From contig OY811971.1 in assembly GCA_963681505.1 (NCBI GenBank), positions 23,219,036-23,283,035 of the forward strand: a stretch of 64,000 nucleotides of DNA. The letters run 5' to 3'. Made by a program: the position numbers and the translations under genes. The notes beneath the pieces were generated by a model. It was not told where the DNA came from. It saw nothing but the letters and a program-made list of their open reading frames with translations, and made no database searches. This DNA is from Eunapius fragilis. Its lineage: Eukaryota > Porifera > Demospongiae > Spongillida > Spongillidae. Below are positions 4,088 through 61,454 of the stretch, piece after piece. How positions within the stretch are numbered: position 1 is the stretch's first letter; each line of letters starts with the position of its first letter.

Positions 4088-4396
4088 CATACTAGTACCT
4101 TGCACTCCTCAACACTCCATCTGAACCAATCATCTGGCTTCAGTAAGCACTTGTAAGGGCACTTCTCCTTTTGTGCTGCAACTTTCCTCTTTAAAACCAA
4201 TTTGCACTTGCTGCAGAACTTGAAGGGTGGATCTCAGGGATACGTCAAAGTGGAAAGCAGTCAGCAACTCCTCGGTGAAGCTTGTACACTTGTATGCACA
4301 TGTGTGGCTTACTAGCTTAGCAGATACCACTGCTGTCTTCCTCTGACCCTTTGTTTTAGCTTGCACCCACAGACTCGGCATATAGGTCTTCCGCTA
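4088..4396 (-). pseudogene. RAG1-like N-terminal zinc region, decayed copy
   Basis: Read on the minus strand this matches the first exon of the intact RAG1-like gene at 19962-20279. It keeps the order CRVCGCK, then SFTEELLTAFHFDV, then in another frame PEIHPS and CPYKCLLKPDDW, and ends at TGCAAG|GT, the same exon boundary as the intact gene. A frameshift falls between FHFDV and PEIHP. It lies in the opposite orientation to the RING and C-terminal pieces of the same family 600 bp away (4978-5835). Either one copy has suffered an internal inversion or two fragments inserted head to head. Confidence 0.75.
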
Positions 4397-4977
4397 CTAC
4401 ATGTACACGCTGTATTCAATGCAAACAGTTTGTGGTTTATTTTGTTGTACAACCTATGTAGGCCGCATGGTAGCCTGTGGTATTCATAGCATGACTGACC
4501 ACTTTGAAGTTCACTCCAACCAAATCGTCGAATTTTAGTCACGGAAATAAGCACCAATGCAAGATACGCAACTGTTAGTGTATTGTGAACTGATGTGCTT
4601 TAATTTGCGCATGCACAGTATTGGAATAATAAATGGTTGCTTTATAGAGAGTAACAGGTTTTGCATAAACTGCCTCCTGTAGATGTTGTTTTGTAATGAG
4701 CTTATTGTACGCCTAATTTTGTCATACTGTAATTTGGTTTATTTAATCTAATTACAAAACCACGATGAAACAACCGTAAGCCGGTCAGCAGCACTTAAAA
4801 ATAAAACATTCAAATGTGTGTGAGGAGGGTGGATCCAGCTATGCAAAGCTGGACGCCAAATCTAATTCTGGGTGGCAGACATAGGATTGTATGCCTGTCT
4901 ACAATAATAGATGGCCCAAACACAGGCCATATTCAACAGACCTGCTAAAATTTTGGAGCAAATTATGACAGTATCAC

Positions 4978-5835
4978 CCCATTAGCAGCCACGCAGACAC
5001 TCTCTGTAATAAGTGAGATGGAATGCTCCATCTGTCTGGGTGTGCTCGCACAACCAATGCAGCTTCCATGTGGCTAACTAGTATGTGCTACTTGTCTGGT
5101 AGAGTGGATCCACCTATGTGCTGTCACTCCACTGCACCCAATTGTTCCTGAAGTGATTGGGAGTGTGTCACCAACACTACTATGGAGGTATTTTTGTTGG
5201 AAACCATGTCCACACAATTTTGAATGTCATGCACAATATAGGTGATTACAATGTGATGTTATGCGAGTCATGCATTTCACCCCTTCAATGGGGAAGCTCT
5301 GTGTTCTTGTGTTTTAACAACTGCTCAAGACACACCTGTCATGGCTGATGCACAAGAACTATACATCAAGTTCCAATCCATATTTCTACAGTTCCCAAGA
5401 TGCCATTCTCTATATGATTGCACCACCATTACACCAGATATGATAAAGTGCCTAGGTAAGTGCTTAATATATCAGTTCTTTAATGCACAGGGTGTAAACT
5501 TCTTTCTGGATTTTTTTAAATATGTATAGATGAGGCCATCAAAATGTTGTTTGCAACTCTGGATAGTACATTTCGGGGCATGCAGAGAAATGTAAAAATG
5601 CATCACTTAGAGGGCCACATGGTGGACTGGTTGTTAACACACCAAGCAGGCTGTGGCTTAATGGGTGAGCAGGGTGCAGAGTCGATTCATGGTAATTCAA
5701 CTCCTTAGCACAAACTTACTCCGGGATAAGGGATCCTAAACTAAAGCTAAAAAGCATAATGAAGGAGCACTACCTCAATATCTCACCCCATTTATCAACT
5801 ACAGTGCCGCTGCCAAGTGAGAAGACCAAGGAAAA
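4978..5835 (+). pseudogene. RAG1-like transposase relic: RING and C-terminal parts, internally deleted
   Basis: The plus strand encodes LAATQTLSVISEMECSIC and then a RING-like stretch (AQPMQLPCG, stop, LVCATCLVEWIHL). It then jumps to GVCHQHYYGGIFVGNHVH, missing the two catalytic aspartate exons present in the intact copy. It continues with SIFLQFPRCHSLYD, a retained intron (about 5455-5528), HHLEGHMVDWLLTHQAGCG and GEQGAESIHG, and ends near KEHYLNISPHLS. One TAA/TAG lies inside the RING and several frameshifts follow the ESIH motif. The retained intron sits at the same codon as in the intact gene, so copying was at DNA level. The relic lies in intron 1 of the PP1-like gene. Confidence 0.8.
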
Positions 5836-7693
5836 TGTGAATATTAAATCCAAATGGCGGCACTGTTTTGATACTCAATCAAGAGCGTGTGTGGGAGCAT
5901 AACGACAACAAAAACAACTGAAAAACCTCTTCACCTCCTATAACAAGATTTTAATAAGAACAAATAAGGCGGGATTTGTAACAAACTCATGCGATTCATA
6001 GGTACCCATGCTGTACCATTTATCTTTGAACCAGATGGCTCTTTTTAGAATAAATAAACAGGCAATAATGTGTTTCAAACGCTTTGCTGCACATACTTGT
6101 ACCATCAGATCTGAACAGTGTGCTTTGAAAACGGATTACATGTGTTGCTAGGGAGTTAATTTGTCATGTTTAACATTCATAGTGGGTGTGGGCCTGACGT
6201 CCACGTTTCAATGCAATTGTAACAGCCGTGGGCAGTGCATAAATTTAGCTCTGTTTAACGTTTAATGATACTCATATGATACTCAATGTTCGTAGAAAGG
6301 GACAGACCAACTTGATCTTACCTAATGGTTTTGTGTGTTGCATCCCTGTAACCATATATAATTCGATGTACACTAGTTAGACGGAGTAGGCCTGGAAAAC
6401 ACATACAGTTGACTGAAGGTGAAATTTGAGGGTTGTGCCTCAAGTCACGTGAAATATTTCTTTCACCTTCTGGATTTAGAAGCTCCATTGAAGATTGTAG
6501 GTGAGGACACCCCACTAGACTAGTATTGGAAGGTGATTCAGTCATTTTGTGATCATCTCACAGGAGATATTCATGGCCAATATTATGACTGTTGAGGTTA
6601 TTTGAGTATGGAGGGTTCCCTCCAGAGGCCAGTTATCTGTTTTTAGGAAACTACGTGGGCTATGGAAGACAACCATTGGAAACAATATGTCTACTGTTAG
6701 CATACAAGATCAAGTATCCTGAAAACTTTTTTCTTCTCCGGGGAAACCATGAGTGTGCTAGAATGAGCAAGATACATGGATTTTATGATGAATGTAAGTA
6801 ACTATATTTCCCTCATGTAACATTTTGAAATGAATACAAGACTGCATGGTACCAATATCATATCTATTGCAAGAACCTTATCCTTATCTCAACAGGCGTG
6901 AGACTGTACAACATACGCGTATGGAAAACGTTTATAGATTGTTTTAACTGCCTACCTGTTGCTGCCATTATAGAGGATAAAATATTTTGCTGCCACAGTG
7001 GTATGACATTTCTGTTCACTAGCTGGTTAACCATTGATGTTTGTTATTAAGGACTATCTCCAGACCTTCAATCAATGGAGCAGATCCATAGAATAATGCG
7101 TCCCACTCATGTACCAGACCAAGGGTTGATGTGTGACCTCTTGTGGGCTGATCCTGACAAGGAATTCATAGGATGGGGTGAAAATGAAAGGGCTGGGATG
7201 TCTTTCACCTTTGGGACAGGGATTGTTTCCAAATTTTTAATAAACCATGACTTTGATTTGATCATTAGGGGAAACCAGGTATGTGAAAATCAGAACTTGG
7301 TAAAGCACTTTATATTAGGTGGTTGAAGATGGATATGAGTTCTTCGCGCAATGCAAATTGGTCACCCTGTTTTCAGCACCAAATTTCAGGGGAGATTTTG
7401 ATAATGCAGGAGCAATCATGAGTGTCGATGAGACTCTGATGGCAAGCTTCCAGGTTGGTTATTTGTGAGCATACATCTTTCATTGCCTATGCTCATGCAG
7501 ATAATAAAGCCTCAAAACAAGAAGGTGGTTACCATGATACCAATAGAGGTTGAGAAAAGATACCCTAGCCAGCTGAAGTGGTCAGTTATTATCTTATCTT
7601 TATAGCTATGGTTGGCAAGTTTCTATATAATTTATCTGCAATGATTCTTTGACTCCATCATATCTCCTCCATTTCAATATTCCCTCTCAATAG

Positions 7694-10600
7694 GTTGGTC
7701 ACATTTGCCTCCACACATGGTGACAATATCAGACTTGAACATGGAGGACAAGTGGCCTGCAGATTTAATAACAACTCAAGAGGCATTGTGATTACTTCTG
7801 CTCCTCTTCCTAGGGATGTCATCTTTCAGGTGAGATAACATAACATGTTTAGACATTATCATCGATACATGTACTATTGTGCCCCATTGAAACTTTATGA
7901 TCATGATAAGCTAAGTACAGAATCATATGGGATTGAGTGAAGAGGAAATATAATACAATGGTTACTTTTTGATAGCATATGCTAGAATCACGTGTTAGAT
8001 TCTTATTGAATGATAGGTTACCCATTATAAAATATTATGTTTTAACCCCTAATGCATGCAGCCCATAACGGCAGCAGATCAGGCTGTGGATATACCTGAT
8101 TGAACATCCAGGCCTAAGTTTTTGTTATTATCGGAACATTGCATGGTGTTCAGGGGCATATGAGCAAATTTATATGAATAATTCATTAAGGGGAGGAGAC
8201 ATAACTTTAGTAGCTGGATTAAAATTCACACAACTGCTGACATAGCTGTGTTCCAATATCATGATGGTCTGCCGTGAATATTATTATAACAAGGTTGGGA
8301 AAAAAGAAAGGGTGGGTACGAAGTGTTTAAATGCCCTAAACACCCCCTACATGTAGGTTAACTGCAAGGAGATTGACTTTGGCCCTCTTTCTCTGATCTT
8401 GCTGAGACAGCTTGGTCATCTAGCCATAATTGGTGTTACCAAAAGATAGAGCTACTTGTTGCAGCATCTTTCATGCCGTTCAAATGGAAAATGTAGCTGT
8501 TATCAGATTTAGGCAATTCAATGTATGCAAAGCAGGTGCCTAAATCATTGGTGTGAATTGAGCAGGAAACTATGCACACATTTTGCTCAGCTGTATCTCC
8601 GTAAAAAATTAATGAACAGGATATATCAATAGCAACTGGACATCATGGAGTTACAGTGGCCTGAATTTGTAATTACATTTTAATTGCATACGTCAAATTT
8701 GATATTCCTTCATTGAAAATTGTGATAACATGCGCAAGGTCCCTTTTTGCTGCCGTGACCCCATTATAAAATCCACAAGCCTCATTCTCTCATACAACGT
8801 TCCTTATAATTATTTTGGCAATTGTGTTACCAACATTGCATGCAATTGCATTTGTTCTGTGCATATATGTAATACTTTATTAATTATTACATTTAGGTGG
8901 AGATTATGGCCATTGTCCCCAGATTGAATGGCTCTCTGTCCATTGGAGTCACTACACAAAGTAAAGAACAAGTGATTTCTATGGACAATGCAACACAGAT
9001 GTTGGGACAAACATTTCTTGTGACATCATCAGTTGGCAAAGCATCCTCAGCCCTGTATGTTGGAGGGCAGGTATGACAGTACTGTTGGTTCATTTACTTG
9101 TGTCAATGTATGTTAATGTGATGCTGTGAGGCTAAAATGTATATAAAATGGGAACAGGTTGTGTGCATGGATTTTTCCACGCTACCCCAAAAAAAAATCA
9201 TTGTATATTTACAGCAGGTTATGTCAATTCAAATGATAAATAAATCTGGTTTTATCCATTATTGTTTTATAATCAGTGGTTCTAGATGGTTTTCCCTACA
9301 TGAGGAGGGATAATTTTGGGCTCTATTCTCTTCTCTGTCAATAAGCACCATTAGTGTGGAATATTTTTGACAGTCTTGTGTGCTCCCAATAAGTATTGGC
9401 ATCTCGCACAACACATATCACTTGAAAGGTATAGAATTGCTTCTTCATTTTATCAGGCTTACAACAATCAGTGTTGTTTTGAATGCAGCTATTGGAAATG
9501 ATAACATTGAATGTAAATGTCAATCTCAATATAAAGGCGGCGGCACTGATATTTCCTCCTATATTGTACATGTCACTATCAGAGTCTTTGACCGGTTATT
9601 ATATTAGTCACCTAACAATATTTACAATCTCCTTCTGGCAACAGAAACCTTTATGATAACAGAAAATTATAACTTGCTTATATGGATCGACAAATTTTCA
9701 CTAATCTTTTGTTCTACATGTAGGTCTTATACTAAGCTACTGGCTGTTGATTATCTAGCAGTCATTTCATGTTTCTATGACTCGCTTCTTTGTATTCCTT
9801 TGCTATTTGCATAAGTAATCTCCATATATTTGAATTTGGATCTTAAATCTGTTCCAGTGTCAGGCTGTGATGGTTTTTAAGATGAGCTCCCTCGTATTGA
9901 CAATTTTCATCCTCAGTTATACTTGCTACCACTGAAAGACCTTGTTGATTTCTTGAAACAAATACTGCCTACAGTGGAATGCAAGATAATATTGTAAACT
10001 ACTGTTAGTTGCTCTTGCCTTAGTCAGCTTCAGTTTTAACCCTGCTAAAAGGATAGTAGACTGTGATAAGTAAGGTGGTCAACAATAATACAGCTTAGAA
10101 TTTTCTGCACATTTTCAATACAGTGAAGGCAATAAAGGGATTGCATCTGAAGTTGTGACAAGACACTTTTTACTTGCATATATAATATTCATCTGTAAGT
10201 ACACAATCATTAATAAACTTAGAAGTTTCTATGCTGTGAATTTTCATACTATCAACAAAAATCCACATTTAGAGTGATAGTAGATATTTCTGTTTCAGCA
10301 TGTGCTATTTACGTCACTATCATGAAATGACAATGAATTGTATTTTTTTCACACTTACATATGTATTTACAAGTTTGTTTTGAATGTGCAAACATTTATT
10401 GAGTGCATTTGTATTGATGCCAGGAAGTGGATCAACTGCCTGGTGAAATCAATTTCCAGGATCTAAAAGTTGGGGACACAGTCGGACTGCTTTACACAAA
10501 CTCTGGTACCTTGCACCTTTTCATTAATGGTGCCCACATGGTCACACTTCCCTGCACTGTCCCCATGGATGTGTATGGGTTGGTGGACTTGTGTGGTATG

Positions 10601-10706
10601 TGTTCGATGGTATCCCTTAGGCCATTGACACCATGGACTGGGGGGAGTCCCCTTCATGTCATGCCTGATAAACATGCTCTTGATCTGCAGAGAAAGCAGC
10701 TTGCTG
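7694..10706 (+). CDS. Neuralized homology (NHR) domain, 3' part of the PP1-like chimeric gene
   Basis: Three exons (7694-7829, 8897-9070, 10424-10706) splice in phase into one NHR domain. Exon one gives VTFASTHGDNIRLEHGG and RGIVITSAPLPRDVIFQ. Exon two gives VEIMAIVPRLNGSLSIGVTT. Exon three gives GDTVGLLYTNSGTLHLFING and VYGLVDLCGMCSMVSL. The order and motifs (GDNI, NNSRGIV, GSLSIGVT, LHLFING, VYGLVDLCG) are those of Neuralized-type beta-sandwich domains, which bind protein partners and in NEURL proteins usually precede a RING. No RING is seen here. The preceding exon (7501-7580) ends at phase 2 and joins this domain without a break, so the gene model is a PP1-NHR fusion. The coding frame of this part is intact. 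A possible last exon is 11393-11490. Confidence 0.75.
7830..10423 (+). other. Two long introns of the NHR part
   Basis: Introns 7830-8896 and 9071-10423 separate the three NHR exons. They are AT-rich, with no nested gene or clear transposon recognised. The small open frames inside them match no family. Confidence 0.5.
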
Positions 10707-10933
10707 GTAAGTTGTCCATGTGTCTGTCCTTCAGCATATTCATTGTGCAGGACTTATTCGAGGTCCTTTTTTGTACTTACATGCATTTTGGATCAGGATC
10801 ATTAATTACTGTGATTTAATCTATCTACTTTTGTGACAATTTCATGCCTAATAATACTAAATGTCTTAATGCTTACCATACATGTATAAGAAAATGGTGA
10901 TTAATCCCTTCATTAATTATTGCAGATGTCTAT

Positions 10934-11490: not shown

Positions 11491-12389
11491 GAGTGTTGTT
11501 TTATGAAATTAAGATCATGTATGCACAGTGGTTTAAGAGCAGGACATTGGGCATTGGTATGATGCATTTTTTTTTTTTTGCATAAACATTGTTGTAACTG
11601 ATTGAAGTGTTACATTTTATTAGTAAAATAAGAAATAGAATTTTTTTTTTTAAAGCTGTGCACATCGAAAGTGAATTTGATGAGCGTTTTTCATTTCCGC
11701 TTACTTGAATTTTATCTGCTTTCTAAAATATATAAATTTGCAGTTTAGTACGTGAGTAAATAGCATTTGTTCTGCTATTTCCAATAATACTAAACTCATA
11801 GGTACTTGCTTCAAATGCGCGGTAATATGTTCCCTTTTATACGTAAAAAAACAAAAAAATTTCGATGTACCAACTTCAAGCACTTTTCTACACGATTCTA
11901 GGACCGAGCGCAGCAAGGAGTAACGGCCAATCGAATCTCCCGTGCATTTCCAATCCTCCAACGTAGCCGACTCCAACCGACTTTCCGTTTAGTGCTGCAA
12001 CTAAGGTTCAAACGCGCGACATAGCGATGACTGATTAATTAATAATTATTTTAATAACTGTTTAGATGAGCCGTATCCTATGTGACGATCAGGGTGACGA
12101 TTGGGTTCTTTTGTGTGCTGCTAGCTCCAGACAACAATAGCAGGCTACGGCAGCACCGTCTTTGTTCTTTTATGGAGGATTTGCGCTGTCTTTGTGCTCT
12201 TTGTGTCGTGCACGCATGCGTATATCGTATGCATACCTGTATATAATGACTTATGTGGGCGATTATACCCGTCTCTTTTTCTATATGCGAAGTGTGTTTG
12301 ATTGCTATTTGGTTGTTTGATTGCTATTTGGTTGTTCAAAGCTGGTCGGTGACATTAGCGTGCTATTGCAGTTTGATTTCAAAGGTTTT
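11491..12389. other. Intergenic, A/T tracts
   Basis: Contains T-runs near 11570 and 11641 and a small minus-strand open frame (11701-11976) that matches no family. It may contain the 5' end of the Transib element. An AG acceptor at 12370 immediately upstream of the Transib frame hints at an upstream non-coding exon. Confidence 0.4.
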
Positions 12390-14746
12390 ATGGCTCAAAA
12401 GGGAAAGTCGATTTCCAACGCGGACGCTTACGACAAATACATAAAGAGGTTTAAAAGCGATTGGGAGGCTTCAGGGCACTTTATTAGCGATGAAAGCTTA
12501 CTTTCTGAGAAGGATCAAAGTAGCAAGTTAAAGAAACATTGGTCTAATCGAATGGCCCTGCTGAGAAGGAAGTGGGGAATAAACTAAATCGAAATAAACG
12601 GTCAGAGAAGACAATAGAAGCCTTTCTCTCCTACCAACAAGAGTTATTTTACAATCCCTCCACTATAGTTGAAGATGACGTCACTATGTCATCTGCTTCA
12701 TCGCCTGAACAGAATGTGGAAGGTGGAAGTACTGTTGAAGAAAACGAAGAAGTGCACATGAGGACTGTAACTCTGAGCCCGTTAGATGAACTCAGCCAAA
12801 GACACGCAAGGAGGAGAACTGATGCTATACTTACTCAATTGAAAGAGGAAGCAGAGAAGCAGATGATAACAGTCACTCAACTTTTGGGATGCCTACTTTA
12901 CAGGGTAAACTACACTCACGATAAGGCTGTGGCTGAGGTTGGTAAGAAGTTGTTCGACCAGGAATCCGTAGACAGAGAGGTTACCTTGGATGAAGCTTTG
13001 TATATGCTGTCAACTTATAGGCTGGGCCGATCTGCCTACACAAGTTTGAGACATGATCTGATGCAAAAGGTGGACCTACCAGCTCATTATAAACTTATGC
13101 AACACAAGAACATGATTATGCCCAGTGTGACTTCTCCAATTGGAGTGTCAGGGGTCTCTGTAAACCTCTGTGAATCTGTTCGGATTCACTTTCAGAGACT
13201 TATTGGGATTCTGGGATTGCAGCCTGGAACATATAGGATGTCTGCAAAGGAAGGTCTTGATGGATCAGGGAGGCATGCCATCTATGATCAAAAAGGAAAT
13301 GTTGAGACTCACAACATGATTCTCTGGATGTGGGTACCCTTAGAAGTCTCAAAAGATCTAGATCAAGACCAGCCTAGCACAAGTCAGAGCAATGTAATAT
13401 GGACTGAAGGCACTCCTAACAGCCCTGATGCTGCTCGACCAATATTGATCACATTGGGAAAAGAGGACAGTGATTTGCTAAACAAAATCGTTCCTCCAGT
13501 CGATGGTGAAATAGAACTGCTGCATAGAAGTGGTGTGACAGTTGACGATTATGGAAAGGTGTATGAATTGAAAATACAATTTCTTCGCTCAATGAACGAT
13601 GGTAAAATGCAAAAGCTTTTGGTTGGGAGAGGAGGAGCATTTTGTATCTTATGTTCATTCACAAAAGAAGATGCTGTTTCTGTGGACCAAATTCAGGATG
13701 GATTTGAAATGGATAATGTGGATATCGATACATTGAAGGCTCTTTATGAAAGTTTGGAAGTTGATGGGGAAGTTTCAAAATCAAGAGGGGATTACGAGGA
13801 GCGAATGGGTTTAACTCAAACTCCTATTACATCCTTTAATGTGCATACCTTTCCCATTTTTCATGCGCTCCTGAGGGGTTTAGACTACTGTTTAAAAATA
13901 ATGTACAAGCTGAATGCAGGAGTGACTGCCTGGAGAGAAAACAAAGAGCAGGCCAGTCGGGTTAATAAAGCTAAGGAAAGAGTGAGGGCAATAATAAAAG
14001 AAAAAACTGGAATGATTATTGACAGGCCCGACAGTGTAGGAGGAGGAACCACAACTACTGGGAACACGGCAAGACAATGTTTGTTTGAGGCAAAAAACCG
14101 TCAGGTTTTGATAGAGTGTATACCTCTAAAGGTCAGATCAGATGGAGAGTGTGACAGAAAAGTCTTTGATGAATTTATCACTAACCTCTCTGTTGTTTTA
14201 AGAGCAATTTCATCTAAGCAAATAGTGAACACTCATCAACTTGACCAACTGTGTAAAGAAACAGTAATTAAACTGGTACATCACTGGCCTACTTTCAGAT
14301 TTACACCAACCATGCATGAAATTCTTGCACATTCAGCAGCATTGATTCATGCTAATGAGTCAAAAGGCTTAGGTACACTTTCTGAAGAGCCATTGGAGCA
14401 TAATAATAAAAATCTTCGTGCATATCGTGAAAGATTGGCTCGAAAAACAACGCAGCAGGCGAACCTAACAGATGTGCTAACTAGACTGTGGATCAAGTCA
14501 GATCCAATAGTGAGGAGTTATCGACGTGTGGTTCAATGTTCATTTTGCAATGGACCACACAATGTTCGCTCCTGCCCCCAAAGATTGGAGGTCACTAGTG
14601 GGTGCGTATCATTTGAAGATCACTTGGTTGAGTGTATTTTTACTACTGGGGAGGGAACGGATCAAGGTGTACACATGGAATATGATGAAGATACTGCTAT
14701 ATCCCAACAATCTTCAACTCACATGGCATCTGGTGATAGCATTTAA
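12390..14746 (+). CDS. Transib-superfamily transposase, one frameshift
   Basis: Transib elements are cut-and-paste DNA transposons whose DDE transposase is related to the RAG1 core. The frame starts at ATG 12390 (MAQKGKSISNADAYDKYIKR) and shifts near 12572-12587, where two frames overlap without stops. It then runs 724 codons to 14746. Motifs in Transib order: SAKEGLDGSGRHAIYD (first Asp, codon 13259); MNDGKMQKLLVGRGGAFCILC (second Asp, codon 13598); GGGTTTTGNTARQCLF; and GTLSEEPLEHNNKNLRAYRE with TRLWIKSDPIV (catalytic Glu probably codon 14396). A CCHC-like knuckle, CSFCNGPHNVRSC, follows. The protein would be about 785 aa. AATAAA signals lie at 14870 and 14907. With a single frameshift it is recently dead, or the shift is an assembly error. 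Terminal repeats were not established. Confidence 0.85.
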
Positions 14747-15617
14747 ACAGTGGCATTTAAACTGAGTCCTCATTAGATTTGTAGTAATAACTAAACTTTC
14801 TATTGCATTGAACTGCAGTAATCTTATACTTGATTACATTGGTTTGATTCTAGTTAATTAATTTGTATTAATAAAAATTATGTTATTCCACCACTTGTTA
14901 ACGGTGAATAAAGAAATAGTTGTGTGTAGTTAACTACTGCAGGGTATCTTGTTATTCAGTTTTAAAACCAGTACTTTTAATCTTGATTATGTTGGTTTGA
15001 TATTATGCATTACCAGAAATTTCGGACGCTCATTACGTATTCCTGACGCGTCAATGCAAACGTCCGTTAATTTTCCGCGCACGCGTCCATTGACATGTAT
15101 GGAACAAAGTGCATTTCTGTTCAGTATAAATCAGGAATCGTCAGAAAAAAGGAAGGCGGTCAAAAATATAGTTAAGAACATCTTTCACTATGCTTTATTG
15201 ATGAAACAAAAAAATTCAGGGTCTATCTGTAGGTTCCATGGCCCTAAAACAACACGTCCATAGACACATGTAGAAATTGTGTAGAAATTTGGGTTTTGTC
15301 AAGATGTTTGTGCATTTTTCTCAGGATCTGTGATAGTTGCAGTAAGAATCAGTGATTAAAATGTTAGCCAGATCATCGAGGAAGGGGCCAGATACCATAA
15401 AACACTCTTTCCTCTACTTTTCAAGGTTCCAGAGTCACTTCAGTGGTGTTAGGTACTGAATGTCCCATTATTAATTCTTCCACTTGCATGACGTAATGGA
15501 CGTTTTAATACGGGCTCTGCCACTGTGTGACTCACTCAGGTATGTTACATCTGAGGTGCTTATAGGCGTTCTACATGTGCGTAACAACCATAGCTTGACC
15601 CACATACGTAGTATATA
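14747..15617 (+). other. 3' flank of the Transib gene
   Basis: Holds two AATAAA polyadenylation signals (14870-14875 and 14907-14912) close after the stop codon. Beyond them are GC-richer stretches with ACGCGT and CATTACGT words near 15030-15085 and 15490-15500 that look like parts of a miniature element but could not be delimited. No gene was recognised. Confidence 0.5.
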
Positions 15618-15670
15618 TACAGTGGCGTATCCAGAATTTCAGCGAGGGGGTGCTTAAGGTCAGGAATACT

Positions 15671-15698
15671 GGGGGGGGGGGGGGGGGGGGGGGGGGGG
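15671..15698. repeat. Poly(G) tract, 28 bp
   Basis: Uninterrupted G run inside the nested miniature elements. Confidence 0.95.
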
Positions 15699-15955
15699 AA
15701 GGGGAGGGCCCGCTTCTGGTCTGATATGAAAAGTGAGTGTGTGTGTGTGGGAGGGGGGGGGGGGGATGCAGTCCGCTTCAAGTCCGATACGAAAAGTGTA
15801 GGCCTTTGGCACACGTTGTCGTTATATTTAATAACTAACGGTTACAATTTTGACCGAGGGGGGTGCTCAAAAGCACCTGGAGCACCCTCTCCAGGGGCGG
15901 ATACAGAAATTTCCAAAAGGGAGGTTTAGACCCGCGATACAGTGGTGTAGAGAGA

Positions 15956-15979
15956 GGGGGGGGGGGGGGGGGGGGGGGG
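15956..15979. repeat. Poly(G) tract, 24 bp
   Basis: Uninterrupted G run, 16 bp after a CAGTGGTGTAG terminus. Confidence 0.95.
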
Positions 15980-16144
15980 ACATATGTCCCCGGGCGCAGG
16001 GTTGAGGGGGGCGTCGAAGTAGACGAGAGATAATTAGTTATCGCGTCAACGAGAACTCACGAACGCATCGGCAGATACAGGGGGCAGTTGTAAACGCGTT
16101 CATATAATATAAGGCTCCTCCCCTTCCCTCTTTTCCGCTAGGTA

Positions 16145-16169
16145 CCCCCCCCCCCCCCCCCCCCCCCCC
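16145..16169. repeat. Poly(C) tract, 25 bp
   Basis: Uninterrupted C run, opposite polarity to its neighbours, followed by ATCGGGCCAGAAGC, a reversed variant of the recurring internal motif. Confidence 0.95.
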
Positions 16170-16305
16170 ATCGGGCCAGAAGCCGACAGCCCCCCCACCC
16201 CCCCGGGCGCTCAACACTCACACTACGTCACTGCCGCGATACGAAAAGCGGGGGTGGGGTGGTGGGGGTGGTGGTGCTGTCCGCTTCAGGCCCGATACGA
16301 AAAGC

Positions 16306-16325
16306 GGGGGGGGGGGGGGGGGGGG
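16306..16325. repeat. Poly(G) tract, 20 bp
   Basis: Uninterrupted G run directly after the motif GCCCGATACGAAAAGC. Confidence 0.95.
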
Positions 16326-16839
16326 CACGGCTGTTTCATTGCATTGAAATTTGGACAACAGGTCCGCGCCCACTATGAATGTTAAGTACCTAGCAACAGG
16401 GCTCATTACTTCCATAGCAACGACTATAGGTTTAAGAAGGCTTTTGTACATGAAGATACCGTCGCTGTTTTTATCTAAAGCGCAACCTACATATACAGTA
16501 AGGACTTTCCCTACCGACTATGCTAATTCCAAGCAATGATACATTGGCAAACACGTGCCACACTGCCGAAAGGTCACGGGGTCTAAATGGGTGAGGTCGA
16601 CGGTGCTCATGTTTTCTAAGAATCGCTCTTATATATTTCGACAAGAAACGACTTGAACAAAGTAAAGGGTTTGATCTTGCGTTTCAAATAGTTTTTACGT
16701 TGCTACGCGACTTCGTCTGTCCATACTCGTCGGTTTAAAATGGCGCCATTTTGGGTTCTCTAATGATATTGTACGTATATAGGTACATGATGACTAATGG
16801 TGTCTGTAGATATATATGATGATGACGGTGAATAGAGAG

Positions 16840-19800
16840 TTATGTATTCTTCTTTCTTCTTTTTTCAGGTGGTGGTACAGCAGCGGACAAGTGTGGTGAA
16901 ATGTTAAGGTAATGCTCTTGCAAAATGCTTTTAAGCTGAGCAATAGGATTTCTCACTCCAGAGTAGGTGCGTTTTAACGTATTGAATTTTGCGTGTATAG
17001 ATTCAGCACCTTGCTCCCCCATTAGACCACAGCCAGCTTGGTATGTTGTTGCCCATTCCAACATGTGGTCTTCAAGGATATGCATCTTGAGTGTTCTTCC
17101 TACTCCACTGAAGTATTTGTCGAATAGACAAAAGAAGTTCTTGATGGCCTGATCTATTTGGAATGAAAAGAATGAAAAGAATAGCTCACAAGAATATACT
17201 ACATGAACAGGTATGCACACACCGAGTTTTTGTATGGTACTTGTGTTGTGTACTGTGCTGTCATACAGAGAATGGCATTCAGAGAATTTCAGCATAATGG
17301 TGCTGAATTTCATATAAATGTCATTTGCATCTGCTTTTAACTCAGATACATGCTCTGTAGCCTTTAATACACAACTGCAAAGAACTTCCACATTGGCAGG
17401 CTATAAATTCAATACAAATTAAGTTGATGGGCATTTTCATATGGCACAAAAAATACCTTGAGAATCTTGTGTACATGATTTCCTACAAAAATTCCTCCGA
17501 AATACCGTTGACGGCACACACCAAGTGATTTTAAACAAGATTGAAGGCTCTTGATACAAGGTCCATCATCTAGGTTAAAGGACGTTTCAATGGTTTCTTG
17601 TAAAACTTTGATTCTTTCTTCCTACATGAGAGGGTGTATATTCAGAATTAGTATGAAATGGTAAATCAAGTGTATCACAGTATATACCTGTTTTTTAACA
17701 TTGCCATGACATTTCTCAGAAAGATCAAGGAGACCTGCAGTGATTGGTGTGCTGCTGCCAGCAACTAGTGCACTGTATGTTGCTAGCTGTTGCAATGTGG
17801 CCTCCTCTTGGTGCAGCTGCTCCAGTTCAACGTTAGCATCATTGATCTCTCTCAGTGCCGCTGAGTACACATCATATTGTGTTTTGCTGATTGGAGAGGA
17901 TTGCCAGTACATGGCAAGCATAAGATCAAGTGTATGGCAGGATTCTTCAAAAAGGGAAAAGAGTTTCTGAAAGATCCCTTGTGTTATGTGCAAACCAGGT
18001 AAGCAAACCTACATGATATAGGGTGTTAAATTATTCATCTATACTATCATGCATATAACCTGAGATATAGGAATGTTAAAAAATGGATCCTGTATGCAGT
18101 TGTTGTACTCCTTTGCACGCTTAACATCCCCTCCATCATCCATAAACCTTTGGTGGTCAAGCAGAATAGTGTCTAGAGAGCGAGAGGAGCATGGACCTTT
18201 TCGTGTAGAAGGCTTTCGTAGCTCATCAAGGGTAATATGACATAGTAAACATGGCTGTTTCCCTGCATGTATGAAATGTCAAACTGTTCAATGGTTATGA
18301 ATGGTTACACACTGGATTTATACCTGATGCACCTGATAGTCCATATATTTGACTGAGAAAGTCAAGATCACCACTGAGAAACACTTTCATGGAGTACACC
18401 CTTAATTAAAAAATATCATTGTACACTACAGTATGCTTGTTCAAAAGTTCTGGATCAACTTACTTCCATTTCATGGTGCCGATATGAGTCACCTCTCCTC
18501 TAAACCGGTCAAGTGCCACATGTAGGTTTGTGACTGTGTCATCTGCCTCAAAGCAGGAAAACACACATGTGTTGTGAACCGAGTTAGGTGTTTTCGTGTT
18601 AACAATTTGGAAGTTCATCTTAAACATGCCACCCCCCTTGTCACCACCAAGTTTAATCCAAACTTCATCTTTTGGTATAATTCCATGCCACACAAGTTTA
18701 TCCTCCCTGGATGAAAGTCATGTATATTATTAGCAGACATACTCACATTTTTTAGACTGACCGTTCATTCTGTTCCAGAAGTTGTATAATCTTCTGGGTT
18801 AGGCTAGGCGTGTAGCCATATGCTGCACCACGAAGTTCTTCTCCCCCAGCAGGCAGTTTGAAGGAGAAGGGGGCCAACTCCACCATGAGATTGTCTCCAA
18901 TACACTCATGTGCAAGAACACGCTCCTTTCTTTCGCTGCCAATGTATACTCCTGCTTGTTTTAACCATCTGTAAATGTACTTATTTTTCATACCATGGAG
19001 TATCATGTGCACCCATGTCATGTACCTACGGAGGATTCTTAGTCTGTACCATGGTATGGCAAGCATTGATTTTATTGCAAGCCCTTGCATTGGTAGCATT
19101 TCCATTTGTACCCCAGCATTGTGAAGTAATTCCTGTTTCTTTTCCACACTCAGTACCCTGATCTCATCCCCAAGTAGGATATCAGAGCCCTTGGAATTGA
19201 CCCCTATGATACTTCGCATGTTTTGAACCTCATGTATACGTCTTTTTCGGGTACGTTGGCTCAGCTGATCAGGGGGTAATTTCGGTGATGTAATGTGAGC
19301 TAGTTTCAGAGGCTGTTAGTAGGGGTAAGCATATGAATGAATCATAACATTATTCACTTTCTTTACTTACAGTTCCACCAGTATTTATATGTATGACGTT
19401 CTCCTTGGAAGCATCAAGCATCTTGTGTACTACCTTGCTGACAAGTTGCATTTCTTGTCTGGTTACATCAGTACAACAATGTGAGTCATATTCGATAGTT
19501 TTGATGCTTCTATCACATGACCTGCAACACACCATTACATCATGCAGGAGTAGCTGTACCATTCTTGAAGCTGGTTTAACATTCTTGGTGTCCAGTGGTG
19601 TTGTAGAATGACAGCAGGGACAGAATGTGGTAGTCAAATGGATCCACTCAATTAAGCATGTGGCACATACAAGCCTGTCACAGGGGAGTTGTATTGGCTG
19701 TCCTAGCACTTCAAGACAAATAGGACACATCAACTCATCTATAGCAGATAGCATCTGTGTAGTGGCCAATGGTGGTTGGTTTGGATTTTGTATGATTTTT

Positions 19801-20279
19801 GGTGGTGCTATAGCCTTAATGTGTTGTACAATATTAGCTGGACTACTGCCTCGTGCTTCAGGTCTCCACCACCGAGCCACGTAAAATGGCTCATTCCTGT
19901 TACAACCCTATGGTGAGAGAGGAAGGAATTGTGAACGAATTTTTTTTGTATTGCACACTACCTTGCAGGTACTGATGGTATGGCTGCACCAGTCATATGG
20001 CTCTAGCAGACATTTGTAAGGTGTTTTGCTTCGGGATGCAGCTATTACACGCTTCATCGTCACGTAACACTTGTTGCAGAACTTAGGGGGGTGGATCTCA
20101 GGACTGTCTTTTTGTGTATCGATGTGAAAGGCTAACAGTAGCTCTTCATGAAACTCCACGCACATGTACATAACAGAGTGCCGCTTTTTTGCCATTGTTG
20201 CTTGTTTAGGGAGTTTACACGGCTTGCAACCACATAAACGGCACAAATCATCCAATTGACACTTGTGTTGAGGTTCCAT
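16840..20279 (-). CDS. RAG1-architecture recombinase/transposase, complete, 11 exons, 949 aa
   Basis: Minus-strand exons: 20279-19962, 19907-19371, 19312-19026, 18968-18762, 18706-18464, 18400-18324, 18262-18060, 18008-17688, 17621-17457, 17400-17223, 17153-16840. All ten introns are GT-AG and short (51-69 bp where measured), and every junction keeps the frame. The coding length of 2850 nt gives 949 residues with no stop. Order: N-terminal Zn region (1-110), RING-like finger (about 155-200), a basic linker with QRTRKRRIHE, then a DDE core with D472 in KLGGDKGGGMFK, D542 in FLSGDLDFLSQIYGLSG, a CLLC pair, and E896 in GEQGAESIHAKFNTLKR. Vertebrate RAG1 has the same order and about 1040 residues. 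The closest described group I know is the molluscan N-RAG-TP transposons (RAG1-like N terminus plus integrase core); placement there is inference. No RAG2-like neighbour and no convincing terminal repeats were found, so transposon versus domesticated gene is open. Confidence 0.9.
16841..18706 (-). other. DDE catalytic core of the RAG1-like protein
   Basis: D472 lies in WIKLGGDKGGG, D542 in the motif SGDLDFLSQIYG, nine residues before the G of GLSGASG, the same spacing as Asp708 in human RAG1. E896 lies in EQGAESIHAKFN, aligning with Glu962 of SEGNESGNK. After it, KSILQEHYLNISPHL aligns with the human DVLKHHWLYTSKYL. The insertion between the second Asp and the Glu carries a Cys pair (PCLLC), a PGLHITQGIFQKLF segment matching the IDALHCDIGNA region, and a helical segment with ALREINDANVELEQLHQEEA. 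The last residues are basic (EKRRKK). All three acidic catalytic residues are present, so the core could be active. Confidence 0.85.
19371..20279 (-). other. RAG1-type N-terminal zinc region and RING-like finger
   Basis: Exon 1 reads LCRLCGCKPCK, EFHEELLLAFHIDT, PEIHPPKFCNKC and YDWCSHTISTCK. Vertebrate RAG1 has the same series (CRICG, an AKVFRIDV-like stretch, IHPTEFCHNCW, then His-Thr-Pro-Ser-Cys-x2-Cys). Splicing exon 1 to exon 2 creates TCKGC, completing that last Cys-x2-Cys pair, which supports the intron 19961-19908. Exon 2 carries DELMCPICLEVLGQPIQLPC, RLVCATCLIEWIHL and FCPCC. In the RING the usual His after the third Cys is Arg (CDRLVC against C-K-H-V-F-C in RAG1). It is followed by SRMVQLLLHDVMVCC and SIKTIEYDSHCC, which match the zinc-finger segment after the RAG1 RING. 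In RAG1 this region gives ubiquitin ligase and dimerisation functions; here that is inference. Confidence 0.85.
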
Positions 20280-20995
20280 TGAGACTATCGATTGTTCGCG
20301 GCGTGTAAATTATTCATGATTTTGTAAGAGATTTTACGCCTAGTTTGAAAACGCGTAGCACGAAACTGAATTCATTAAACGACTTACCGATCCTTTCCCT
20401 TTATTCTCTGCGTTTACCAGCCGATTTAATAAGAGCAATTTTTTACAGTTTGAGATCAAACACGTGACAGTTTTAGTTTCGATGAGAAGAGCCTTTATGC
20501 GTGGCCACGAGTGTATCGTTGAAAATATAGTATTTGATTGCGCAAATAGTCCTATGATATTTCAGATGTTTACTCAACCTAAATTTATTGTTGGTTTTCA
20601 CATTGGTACAAAAGGCCACGTACAGGAAACCTCCAAAGTTAAGTGTCAGTTAATGAGCTCTTTGGCGACCATTTTTTAATATATACCGTAATTCGATCAT
20701 TACGATCTAATTTCAAAACCTAATGTCACGTACGGAACAGCCGTGGGGGGGGGTGCCGTACGCTTCAGACTGGACTCAATAATATCTTGTATATTTACCA
20801 GACCCCGCCAAACTAAGAACTAAACAACATTTGAAATAGCCTACAACCAGCCTGCCTATACAACTGTATAGGCCTAACAGTGTGATATTGTCTAGTTGTT
20901 GGATCAGTTTCCATCACAAAAGTGTTGGTGCCATATGTATGTGTGTGCTTGTGTGCATGCATGTGTATGCTTGTGTGCATGTGTATATGCATGTG
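20280..20995. other. 5' flank of the RAG1-like gene
   Basis: Upstream region of the minus-strand RAG1-like gene. No TATA box was recognised. GC-rich words (ACGCGTAGCA at 20351) and a CACGTG E-box (20461-20466) are present. A short G run (20744-20752) with GCCGTACGCTTCAGAC is a further variant of the poly(G) miniature-element motif. No other gene was seen. Confidence 0.4.
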
Positions 20996-25636: not shown

Positions 25637-26812
25637 TTGTTGAAGCTGTACCACTTCCGGATAAGTGTGCCAAAAGTGTATCAAGGATTCTATTCAAGGT
25701 CATGTAGTTATCCAAGTTTATAGGTAATGCTTGACCGTTTTTTTCTCAAATGTATACAGATATTTATGAGAATGGGAATTCCAAGAGTACTAACTACTGA
25801 CAATGGGACAGAGTTCAAAAATCAGCTTGACACTCACTTGGCTGAAGCACTGGGAATTAAACGGATATTTACTATACCATATCATCCTCAGGTTTGTTAC
25901 AATATGATAAATTCATGTATACCCCATATTGAATTTAAGTATAATAACTTTTTATCCTCTAGCTAAGCTTTAATTGCACAACAAGCATAAGGAATATTTC
26001 TTCCCCTCAGTAATTTATTAATGTATTGATTGTGTCTTATGATTTTACAGGCAAATGGTCTTGACGAACGATTTAACCAGACCCTACAGAACATGATAGT
26101 GAAGTTTGTACAAGACAAAAAGGAAATATGGGATGAGTACTTAGACACTTGTGTATACGCATACAATACTTCTGTTCATGAGTCGACAAACTTTTCTCCA
26201 TTTGAAGTGATGTTTGGTCGAAAAGCAATTCTTCCTATTGATATCAACATTGATGAAAAGGAACCAGATATGATGTTAATGAACCAAGAAGAGCCAGCAA
26301 TTGCTGAAGTTGTTGATGTTATGAGTGAGCAGCGTCTAAAAGTACTTGAGTCTGTGAAGCAAAGTATACAGCAAGCACAGATAAAGCAGAAGCACGCATA
26401 TGATAAGAAGCATGCAAGTGAGCATTCATTTGAAGTTGGAGAAATGGTGATAAAGAAAGACTTCAGAAGAGGAAAGCAAGCTGGAGGCAAGCTGGACACA
26501 CCTTTTGTAGGCCCATACATTATTATCAAGTGTCATGGCAAGGGGATGTATTGTCTTCAATTAGCCAGCAATGCTGCTGAAATTGTTGAAAGGGTTAGTG
26601 GAGCATATTTGAAACCATACCAGAAACCAAAAGAAGACGGTATGGAGAAAAATATGGAAGAAGAAGAAAAAGCAGATGAACATAATGAGCAACCATTAAA
26701 TGATGATTATGAAAATGTAGATTTTGAAGGGCTTAGCAAACAAAATCAACTGCTCACACTTGCTTCGTTTGTGGCGCTCAGGAGCCCGTGCATTGCACTA
26801 CAAGGGAGATGA
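25637..26812 (+). CDS. Gypsy-type integrase (Ginger-like), 5' end in gap
   Basis: Exons: up to 25698, 25760-25891 and from 26051, with introns 25699-25759 and 25892-26050. They give VEAVPLPDKCAKSV, then MGIPRVLTTDNGTEF (second catalytic Asp in TDNG), FTIPYHPQ spliced to ANGLDERFNQTLQNM (catalytic Glu in DERFN), and FSPFEVMFGRKAILP. The end carries a GPY/F-type module, TPFVGPYIIIKCHGKGMYCL. The first Asp lies in the gap. Introns and the OTU domain that follows argue against an LTR retrotransposon and fit the Ginger DNA transposons, some of which carry OTU proteases, or a domesticated derivative. The frame ends at 26812. How it joins the next exon is unresolved: the neighbouring frame reading GARALHYKGDEDGDEFD is one base out. 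Confidence 0.8.
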
Positions 26813-27901
26813 AGATGGTGACGAATTTGATGTAAGTGACTATTTTACTTATAAATCAATGCATATGTTAAGATTTTATTTTTCCATTCTGCAGGACATA
26901 TCCTTACATTTAGAGCAAAGAGAATATGCTCTAAGCAAAGATATTGATGTTGCTCTGTGGATAGACTACCGTTTGTACTATGGAGAAGCACCACTAAGAG
27001 AGGTGTATGGAGGAGATTTTGTTATAGTAACTGAAGACCTAAATGATGAGTTTGACGTTTTCAAAAGAAAAGTCTTCTCTTACCTGGATGATGCATTGAG
27101 AATGGTGAGATCAATTGATCTACTCAACATTTGGATCAGGGAAAGCAATGTCTCAGTGAAGTCACTTCAGGTACTTGAGAACACTTACTACCTTATGTCA
27201 CCATTACATCTGGATGACTATTGCCAGTGGGTCCTAGATGCAAGAAAATTCTTTACTGATAAGTCTGTCAATAAGAACACTCTACAATGTTTTAGAGAAC
27301 AGCTTTTAGATCAAACCTCCACTGCTTCATGTTTGGAAATTTTGAAAGGGGAAGAATGGAGAATATAAGCTACTTACCGGTATGTAGTGATTGGCAAGAG
27401 GAGGGATGTCATACGTTAGGAATCAAATTAGTTGTTGGCAAACATTCTCATCATAGTGATCCATCATCTATGAAGGTCTCTCAAGCTCCAGCAGTAACTG
27501 AAAGGGTCAAGGGTGATGGAAATTGTTTTTTTCGGTCAATTGCCCTGGCTGTAACAGGATCCCAACAGGACCACCAAGAATTCCGCCTCCTTATTACATC
27601 CTACATGATACATAATGCATCATCTCCCAAGCTGGCCTGCTTTTTGGCTCGAAACGAGTCAGTAGAGCAATACATGAAACGTACAAATATGCAATCACTC
27701 GGCAAATGGGCCACAGAATTTGAAATAATTGCAGCAGCATCTTTGCTCAGAACAGCAATATATGTTTTTGCACTATCAGGAGCAACCTACAAATGGCTAA
27801 AGCATTCACCTATAGAGGTTACTACTAATGACAGACATCAGAACGAGTCCATTTATATTACCAATATCAGCAACCACTTTGAAACTGTTAAGAAGCTATG
27901 A
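26770..27901 (+). CDS. OTU-family cysteine protease region of the same element
   Basis: An exon ending at GAT|GTAAGT (26831) is followed, after a short intron ending TTCTGCAG (26894), by DISLHLEQREYALSKDID and about 150 further residues with no recognised domain. A frame change near 27330-27420 leads to the OTU domain: VTERVKGDGNCFFRSIAL (catalytic Cys codon 27524), EFRLLITSYMIHN, KWATEFEIIAAASLL, IYVFA, and a final IYITNISNHFETV carrying the expected catalytic His. OTU enzymes remove ubiquitin or related modifiers. The catalytic Cys and His are both present. The frame change could be a mis-called short intron or a real frameshift. The stop is at 27901. Confidence 0.75.
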
Positions 27902-29865: not shown

Positions 29866-30733
29866 CTTCCGCCGCCCCTGGCAACGGGATGGTGGAACGA
29901 TTTAATCGAACTCTGCTGGACATGTTATCAACAACAGTGGGAAAGCACCCTTCTAATTGGGAGCAGAATATACGCAGGGTTTGCCTGGCGTATAATTCAA
30001 GCGTTCACGCATCGACGGGTTTAGTCCATTCTTTCTGATGTTTGGTCGACAGGTGAAGCTTCCAATTGATCTGATGTATGGTAGCAGCAAAATTGAGGAA
30101 GTTCCAGTCCTAGAGTATGTGCAGAGTTGAAAGAAGACCTACAAAGTTCTTATCAACTAGTGAGAGACACATGTGTGACCGAACACAAATGACAGAGGCT
30201 ATTACGATGAAAAGGTTCACGGGGCACCCTTCAATCAAGGCGATCTTGTCTGGTTGCATTCTCCTGCTGTGCCTCGAGGGTTGTCTCGGAAGTTACATTG
30301 TCCCTGGATGGGGCCATTCAAGGTGATAGAGCGGATCGGCAAAAGCACTTATAAGATCAAGGGAATACGGGGCACAAAAACGCAAATAGTGCATTTTGAT
30401 AGGCTTAAACCTTGCCCAGCGAAAATCAGGTTGGATCAAGAAGCCGATAGCACGGTACAGCGTGACAGCAAGGATGATGGTGGGGTGGCAGCCCATCAAG
30501 TGGAGGAACAACATACAAGCAGAAGATTGCAGCTTCTGGATGATGACGATGATTTGGCAGCCCCGCCTCCTGAAATTGACCTACCCGAACCTGATCCGGG
30601 GATAAGGCACGCAGAAATTCCCGAGCCTGTACCGGTGCCAGAGGACCACAGGAGAATGGTACCGGTTCCAAAGAGGTATCCAAACCGTGTACGGAAACAG
30701 ACAGACTTCTATGGGCCATTCATCGCTCATTAA
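29866..30733 (+). pseudogene. Ty3/Gypsy retrotransposon integrase C-terminal end, frameshifted
   Basis: Frames in sequence give GNGMVERFNRTLLDML (catalytic Glu motif), VCLAYNSSVHAS, PFFLMFGRQVKLPIDL, LKEDLQSSYQLVRD, PWMGPFKVIERIGKSTYKI and TQIVHFDRLKPC, then an acidic/proline-rich tail to 30733. At least three frame changes and internal stops lie between 30016 and 30250. The upstream pol and gag are not visible. Right after the stop, AAAAGAGGGAGCAG followed by TGTAAAGAG (30748) looks like a polypurine tract and the start of a 3' LTR, but no second LTR copy is present to confirm it. Confidence 0.8.

Positions 30734-37009: not shown

Positions 37010-38597
<1,588 letters not shown>

Positions 38598-50251: not shown

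Positions 50252-61454
<11,203 letters not shown>

Follow-up and report, generated by a model that had tools for sequence, protein, structure and literature searches.

What kind of gene encodes a protein that resembles the V(D)J recombinase RAG1? The question is raised by a gene at 16840..20279 in a 64,000-nucleotide stretch of contig OY811971.1 (the window), which the initial annotation had described as a complete gene of RAG1 architecture. To our knowledge, canonical Transib transposons lack any counterpart to the front half of RAG1, which comprises a zinc region and a RING and whose origin is still argued. Our analysis indicates that the gene very probably belongs to an intact autonomous Chapaev DNA transposon, whose predicted transposase combines a RAG1-type front half with an RNase H-like DDE core. 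The assignment is based on a DUF1280 match, the Chapa and RING domains, CA..TG termini, 4-bp target-site duplications and the order of the catalytic motifs. Since every Chapaev feature that could be tested was found, we assign the element to this family.

Kapitonov and Koonin (2015; PMC4411706) reported that Chapaevs carry a Chapa domain, followed in two subgroups by a RING. They regarded Chapaevs as belonging, distantly, to the Transib superfamily and inferred that the Chapa-RING-core layout predates RAG1. Because Chapaevs with these three parts are described in that study, the layout is already known, and the earlier suggestion that it goes beyond known transposons is not supported. What is new here is an intact, recently moved Chapaev member in the present genome; the architecture is not. 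The window element is like the published Chapaevs in the order of Chapa and RING, a core distant from Transib, CA..TG termini and DUF1280, which an excerpt of PMC3985635 equates with Chapaev transposases and groups with RAG1. It has many exons and a RING that lacks one zinc ligand, two features in which it may differ from the published Chapaevs.

The transposon and its copies

The element and its ends are as follows.

16326..20745, minus strand: complete Chapaev transposon, 4,420 bp, with inverted termini and with ends aligned in other copies
20736..20745, minus strand: 5' terminal inverted repeat, on the side of the gene, with CACGGCTGTT as its minus-strand reading
16326..16335, plus strand: 3' terminal inverted repeat, with CACGGCTGTT as its plus-strand reading
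16322..16325, no strand: target-site duplication GGGG, inside a poly-G tract, so that its length is not resolvable at the window site
20746..20749: target-site duplication GGGG, other side

CA..TG terminal inverted repeats are present. The boundaries of the element, both of which lie in the poly-G tract, are CACGGCTGTT at 16326 and AACAGCCGTG, whose last base is 20745; the same termini are found in other copies. Both ends are available for nine copies, and seven of these are flanked by a 4-bp duplication: ACCC, AGAT, AGTA, a further AGTA at two loci whose flanks are identical, CCCC at the window site and GGGG on C8. The CCCC and GGGG duplications sit inside homopolymer runs, and the two AGTA loci with identical flanks are probably one duplicated locus. 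A 4-bp target duplication is a hallmark of Chapaev. By eye, a repeat with units like GATACGAAAAGC-poly-G-TGCTGTCCGCTTCAGGCC occupies 15,600-16,330 and 20,746-20,790, and the Chapaev seems to have inserted into the poly-G tract of this repeat.

The element was apparently active recently. Four near-full copies elsewhere in the genome (L047-L050) are 97.5-99.6% identical to it, one of which (L048) is intact. Genome searches with the two element ends gave at least 40 and at least 41 matches, and among the 5' ends six, counting that of the window, share 98-100% identity. At 22 further loci the paired ends are 83-89% identical and span 1.5-3.0 kb, mostly 2.6-2.7 kb. These loci fall below the length of the whole gene and are therefore presumably non-autonomous; two of them, at C20, are counted among the seven copies with 4-bp duplications.

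Searches with single exons counted at least 151, 155 and 150 matches (150 scored each time, of 742, 520 and 293 candidates). When exon-match starts within 8 kb are merged, they amount to at least 267 Chapaev-like loci in the 219-Mb genome, an approximate count for which the listed starts were partly picked by eye and two loci were added by hand. Open frames are kept in the exons of many of them; together the loci amount to a large expansion of genes that bear a RAG1-type front half. L052, L053 and L054 are additional diverged Chapaev genes, with 33-64% identity in exon 2; in L052, ~2 kb separates the exons matching 2 and 3. No relatives were found in viral or prokaryote contigs. The window itself holds a further copy.

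4099..6230, no strand: decayed Chapaev copy, the second in the window, with a 3' terminus at 6230 that matches

Part of the N-terminal exon is inverted in this decayed copy.

By analogy with the family, the transposase would pair the CACGG.. ends of the element and excise it by DDE cleavage. Strand transfer elsewhere would then proceed with 4-bp staggered cuts. Shorter copies that share the same ends could be mobilised in trans.

The gene and its RAG1-like front half

The gene model consists of the following parts.

16840..20279, minus strand: transposase gene, 11 exons, 946 aa, supported by L048 and L051
19962..20279, minus strand: exon 1, Chapa / RAG1 N-terminal zinc domain, residues 1-106
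19371..19907, minus strand: exon 2, end of the Chapa region, RING-like finger, C2HC finger
19026..19312, minus strand: exon 3, GGTP motif, basic linker, start of the core
18762..18968, minus strand: exon 4
18464..18706, minus strand: exon 5, with the bulk of the DUF1280 match and catalytic D472
18333..18400, minus strand: exon 6, D542
18060..18262, minus strand: exon 7, C558-x2-C561 at 18240-18251
17688..18008, minus strand: exon 8
17457..17621, minus strand: exon 9, GNHVHKIL motif at its end
17223..17400, minus strand: exon 10
16840..17153, minus strand: exon 11, H867-x4-H872, E893, C-terminal segment, stop

The gene runs on the minus strand from an ATG at 20279 to a TAA at 16840-16842. The initial annotation had the coordinates exactly and the same count of ten introns. 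Our splice model removes ten GT..AG introns of 51-70 nt each. The resulting protein is unbroken, as had been proposed, but has 946 residues instead of 949, a difference that we ascribe to the last intron. Retention of introns 3 and 10 (57 and 69 nt) leaves the frame open, with 989 residues. The other eight introns must be removed, because the reading frame is otherwise broken.

The copy L048, on another contig and 99.37% identical, has GT..AG at 10 of 10 introns and an open frame of 946 codons, with 10 amino-acid differences. L047, L049 and L050 also keep GT..AG at every intron, yet carry frame-breaking indels. The paralogue L051 is 45% identical. With the same ten phases imposed from the window gene, and not inferred independently, it gives a complete protein of about equal length from ten GT..AG introns without stops; its intron 3 is 52 nt. 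L052 and L053 would not splice with the imposed phases and were left out of the paralogue alignment.

Codon comparison showed the transposase to be under purifying selection: over 173 codons (in-frame pieces from four regions of three diverged loci), the proportion of differing nonsynonymous sites (pN) was 0.20 and that of synonymous sites (pS) 0.86, the latter a saturated value. An intact frame and purifying selection would also suit a transposon-derived gene domesticated by the host. We consider this very unlikely, given that the element retains intact termini, has sister copies with target duplications, and has several near-identical copies and many relatives elsewhere in the genome.

Two zinc modules follow the N-terminal domain.

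19611..19727, minus strand: RING-like finger, C167-C205, with R184 at the position of the fourth-ligand His of RAG1
19473..19526, minus strand: C2HC-like finger, C234-C251

In place of a Chapa profile as such, the Pfam model RAG1_imp_bd served as a stand-in for the Chapa domain; on exon 1 alone it scored 24.8 bits, over its cut-off of 23.3. When a two-sequence profile was searched against all PDB sequences, the best match was a full-length RAG1 chain (6oem, 1040 aa), which we take to be the mouse protein, over residues 101-381 with an E of 1.7e-11. A 137-residue RAG1 chain (21wb_A) also matched, with an E of 4.5e-7. In the best 60 of 102 matched PDB sequences, all matched stretches lie within the front half. 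Since RAG1 is the best among all PDB sequences, the front half is like RAG1 specifically and not like any RING. The linker stretch in the exon 3 region, searched alone, gave no significant RAG1 match in the PDB.

The fourth zinc ligand of the RING is His in RAG1 and Arg here, and none of the six aligned sequences (the window protein and five paralogues) has the His. With one zinc ligand missing, a ubiquitin-ligase activity of this RING, as far as it can be predicted from sequence, is doubtful. As in related proteins, the zinc modules may serve dimerisation, through the RING region, or contact with DNA or chromatin.

One intact protein with an N-terminal zinc domain, a RING-like finger and a DDE core is thus confirmed. 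The claim of a whole RAG1 layout stands for the N-terminal half; for the catalytic half, the resemblance comes more from the order of the motifs than from significant similarity in sequence. Vertebrate RAG1 shares with the window protein the N-terminal zinc region, the RING dimerisation domain, a zinc finger after the RING, and the D-D-C2-H2-E order. It differs in that the two cores are not significantly similar by sequence and no RAG2 partner is seen in the element; the window protein is not a V(D)J recombinase.

N-RAG-TP of Aplysia was reportedly described by Panchin and Moroz in 2008. In PMC8355894 it is described as made up wholly of sequence resembling the RAG1 N terminus. By that description, it is like the window element in being a transposable element with such sequence, and the window protein differs in having a DDE core in addition. 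The relation proposed in the initial annotation to RAG1, for the front half, and to N-RAG-TP, by description, is upheld.

The catalytic core

The catalytic residues map to the following codons.

18640..18642, minus strand: D472 codon (KLGGDKGGG)
18367..18369, minus strand: D542 codon (VFLSGD)
17002..17004, minus strand: E893 codon (GEQGAES), E896 in the initial annotation

The Pfam family DUF1280 matches the window protein with 50.0 bits (cut-off 25, E 3.7e-13) and the paralogue L051 with 42.8 bits, and both cores of the two-member alignment match it. D472, D542, C558-x2-C561, H867-x4-H872 and E893 are all invariant between the window protein and L051, and at 45% overall identity the catalytic blocks are among the best-conserved segments. 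E893 was picked as the catalytic Glu from alignments with RAG1 and Transib; E889 is equally invariant. Of the catalytic triad proposed earlier, D472 and D542 agree with our model, and the Glu is E893, not E896. According to the portion of PMC12730594 available, the order D, D, C(2)C, H(3-4)H, E is that of the CACTA-Mirage-Chapaev-Transib group and RAG1. By motif, the window core follows this order.

In a profile comparison with Transib, the GN, HxxxxH, E and C-terminal segment align in order; no alignment was obtained for the first half of the core, which holds D472 and D542. The initial annotation had extended the RAG1 similarity into a C-terminal segment, KSILQEHYLNISPHL. In phmmer, the C-terminal stretch that includes it scores 0.6 bits against RAG1. 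The segment is only part of that alignment, and the same pairing recurs in the marginal Transib comparison.

Several results weigh against the account of a Chapaev with a RAG1-type front half and a DDE core. The core-only profile found no RAG1, RAG1L or Transib chain in the PDB at E up to 10. The RAG1-core Pfam model matched neither of the two cores; it matched one of five Transib proteins of the same genome. The profile score against Transib is marginal: 33.9, where 100 shuffles reached no more than 21.7 and the reversed profile 17.5, with an HH probability of 10.7%. In a larger build the score was 30.8, the 100 shuffles reached no more than 30.4 and the reversed profile 15.1, and the probability was 4.5%. 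In the front half, RAG1_imp_bd scores 18.0 bits on the whole protein, under its cut-off, and it is not listed for L051 in the Pfam scan. At the ends, the C13 copy has an eroded 5' end and no clean 4-bp duplication, and a diverged copy at L013 is flanked by CGCGAC, which fits 6 bp, or 4 bp only with two extra bases. In the excerpted PMC12730594, duplications of the wider CACTA-Mirage-Chapaev-Transib group range from 2 to 5 bp. The initial annotation would have rejected its proposal if no significant profile match to the RAG1 core or N-terminal domain were found. On this test the outcome is mixed: the N-terminal domain has a significant RAG1 match and the core has none.

Could the gene instead be a true RAG1 or RAGL (ProtoRAG, TransibSU), as a gene or transposon directly related to the V(D)J recombinase? 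The RAG1 match of the front half, the top one among PDB sequences, and the shared order of catalytic and zinc motifs would agree with this. Its core, however, matches DUF1280 and not the RAG1-core model, and lacks, at E up to 10, the RAG1 or RAG1L match in the PDB that the neighbouring Transib frame has. Moreover, its termini read CACGGCT and not CACWRTG, its duplications are 4 bp and not 5 bp, and the 4.4-kb element contains no second long frame, as far as open frames were inspected; no search with a RAG2 profile was made. ProtoRAG, RAGL and TransibSU likewise have a RAG1-like transposase inside an element with terminal inverted repeats, but their cores are RAG1 cores, they carry RAG2L, and they end in CAC heptamers and make 5-bp duplications. 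We therefore consider it highly improbable that the gene is a direct relative of the recombinase.

A second alternative is that the transposon gained its RAG1-like front half by an independent capture and fusion to an unrelated core; only the front module would then be common to Chapaev and RAG1. Such a capture would fit the PDB search, in which strong homology to RAG1 extends as far as the C2HC finger and no significant match is seen in the linker or the core. The order of the modules, however, is the same in Chapaev and RAG1, and the core aligns collinearly with Transib, if marginally. Published work also groups DUF1280 with RAG1 (PMC3985635, in excerpt) and Chapaev with Transib (PMC4411706, and PMC12730594 in part). 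We regard independent capture as unlikely, and retain the Chapaev transposon with its RAG1-type front half as the best account of the locus.

The neighbouring Transib family and evolutionary meaning

A Transib element lies next to the Chapaev.

11524..15008, plus strand: Transib element distinct from the Chapaev, lacking ~130 bp at its right end
12548..14746, plus strand: open frame of a Transib-family transposase, 732 aa

The frame matches the 6pqn transposase (E 5.9e-26), presumably HzTransib, and RAG1L 6b40 (E 9.2e-7); in the window copy it is apparently shifted between 12,548 and 12,584. The left end at 11524 reads CACAGTGGTTTAAGAG, and other copies end in CTTCTAAACCACTGTG. The family (window, L002, L003, L017, L013) has termini CACAGTGG..CCACTGTG and, in two copies, 5-bp duplications: CAGCC on C5 and TGCTG on C6, the latter with one change in the right heptamer. 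A copy at C1:24.18 Mb has both ends and, by eye, no exact 5-bp duplication. We take the terminal CACAGTG to be the heptamer of the recombination signal sequence (RSS). Several copies are 97-99% identical in protein, suggesting that the family was recently active. The Transib transposase C terminus (window, L009) reads CSFCNGPHNVRSC, a C-x2-C-x3-H-x4-C knuckle. It is near the Cx2Cx3GHx4C motif that an excerpt of PMC7204232 gives for the tail of invertebrate RAG1L, and is one residue shorter. The Transib shares with the Chapaev the genome and the wide superfamily, and differs in its CACAGTG terminus, its 5-bp duplications and the lack of a visible zinc front half.

The two genes lie tail to tail, ~2.1 kb apart, an arrangement reminiscent of the two convergent genes of ProtoRAG, and could be thought to form one two-gene transposon. 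However, three other Transib copies end with their own terminal inverted repeat ~130 bp past the equivalent of 15008, two of them flanked by the 5-bp duplications CAGCC and TGCTG, no two-gene unit was seen among the Transib copies, and the Chapaev has its own termini. Such a unit is extremely improbable, and the Chapaev is best viewed as a transposon of its own.

The two families are nested, in both directions, at two loci. In L017 3026-8305 (C5:3.30 Mb), a Transib flanked by CAGCC at each end lies in sense inside exon 2 of a Chapaev gene, the exon that encodes the RING. In L013 916-3770 (C1:24.18 Mb), an internally deleted Chapaev with the terminal inverted repeat CACGGGTGTT lies antisense between the Transib left terminus and its frame. 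No fused frame was seen in L017 or L013, where no dedicated test was made, and nesting is no commoner than chance, as tested in the present genome. PMC8355894 proposed, as a step in the origin of RAG1, that an N-RAG-TP inserted into a Transib at its 5' end; L017 and L013 are real examples of such nesting.

Elsewhere in the window, C-terminal pieces of retrotransposon integrases (Pfam SH3_Tf2-1 and Integrase_p58_C) occur at 26030-26809 and 30179-30730. Pfam domains of OTU protease, CAP, SRCR, Neuralized and DEAD-helicase occur at 27296-27898, 37235-37585, 54036-54374, 10418-10816 and 51558-51935, consistent with an animal genome.

The tree legend in PMC4411706 names no sponge. If the present genome is that of a sponge, an intact Chapaev with a full RAG1-type front half outside Bilateria and Cnidaria might push the joining of Chapa, RING and core towards the animal root, and the nestings at L017 and L013 might be natural examples of a possible step in which a front half is joined to a Transib core. 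We propose this tentatively, as a possibility with the odds against it. An intact, recently moved Chapaev is an experimental subject for the role of zinc and RING domains in a transposase. Its presence in the same genome as many relatives and a Transib with an RSS-like heptamer allows one to ask whether the layout shared by RAG1 and Chapaev was inherited or separately acquired.

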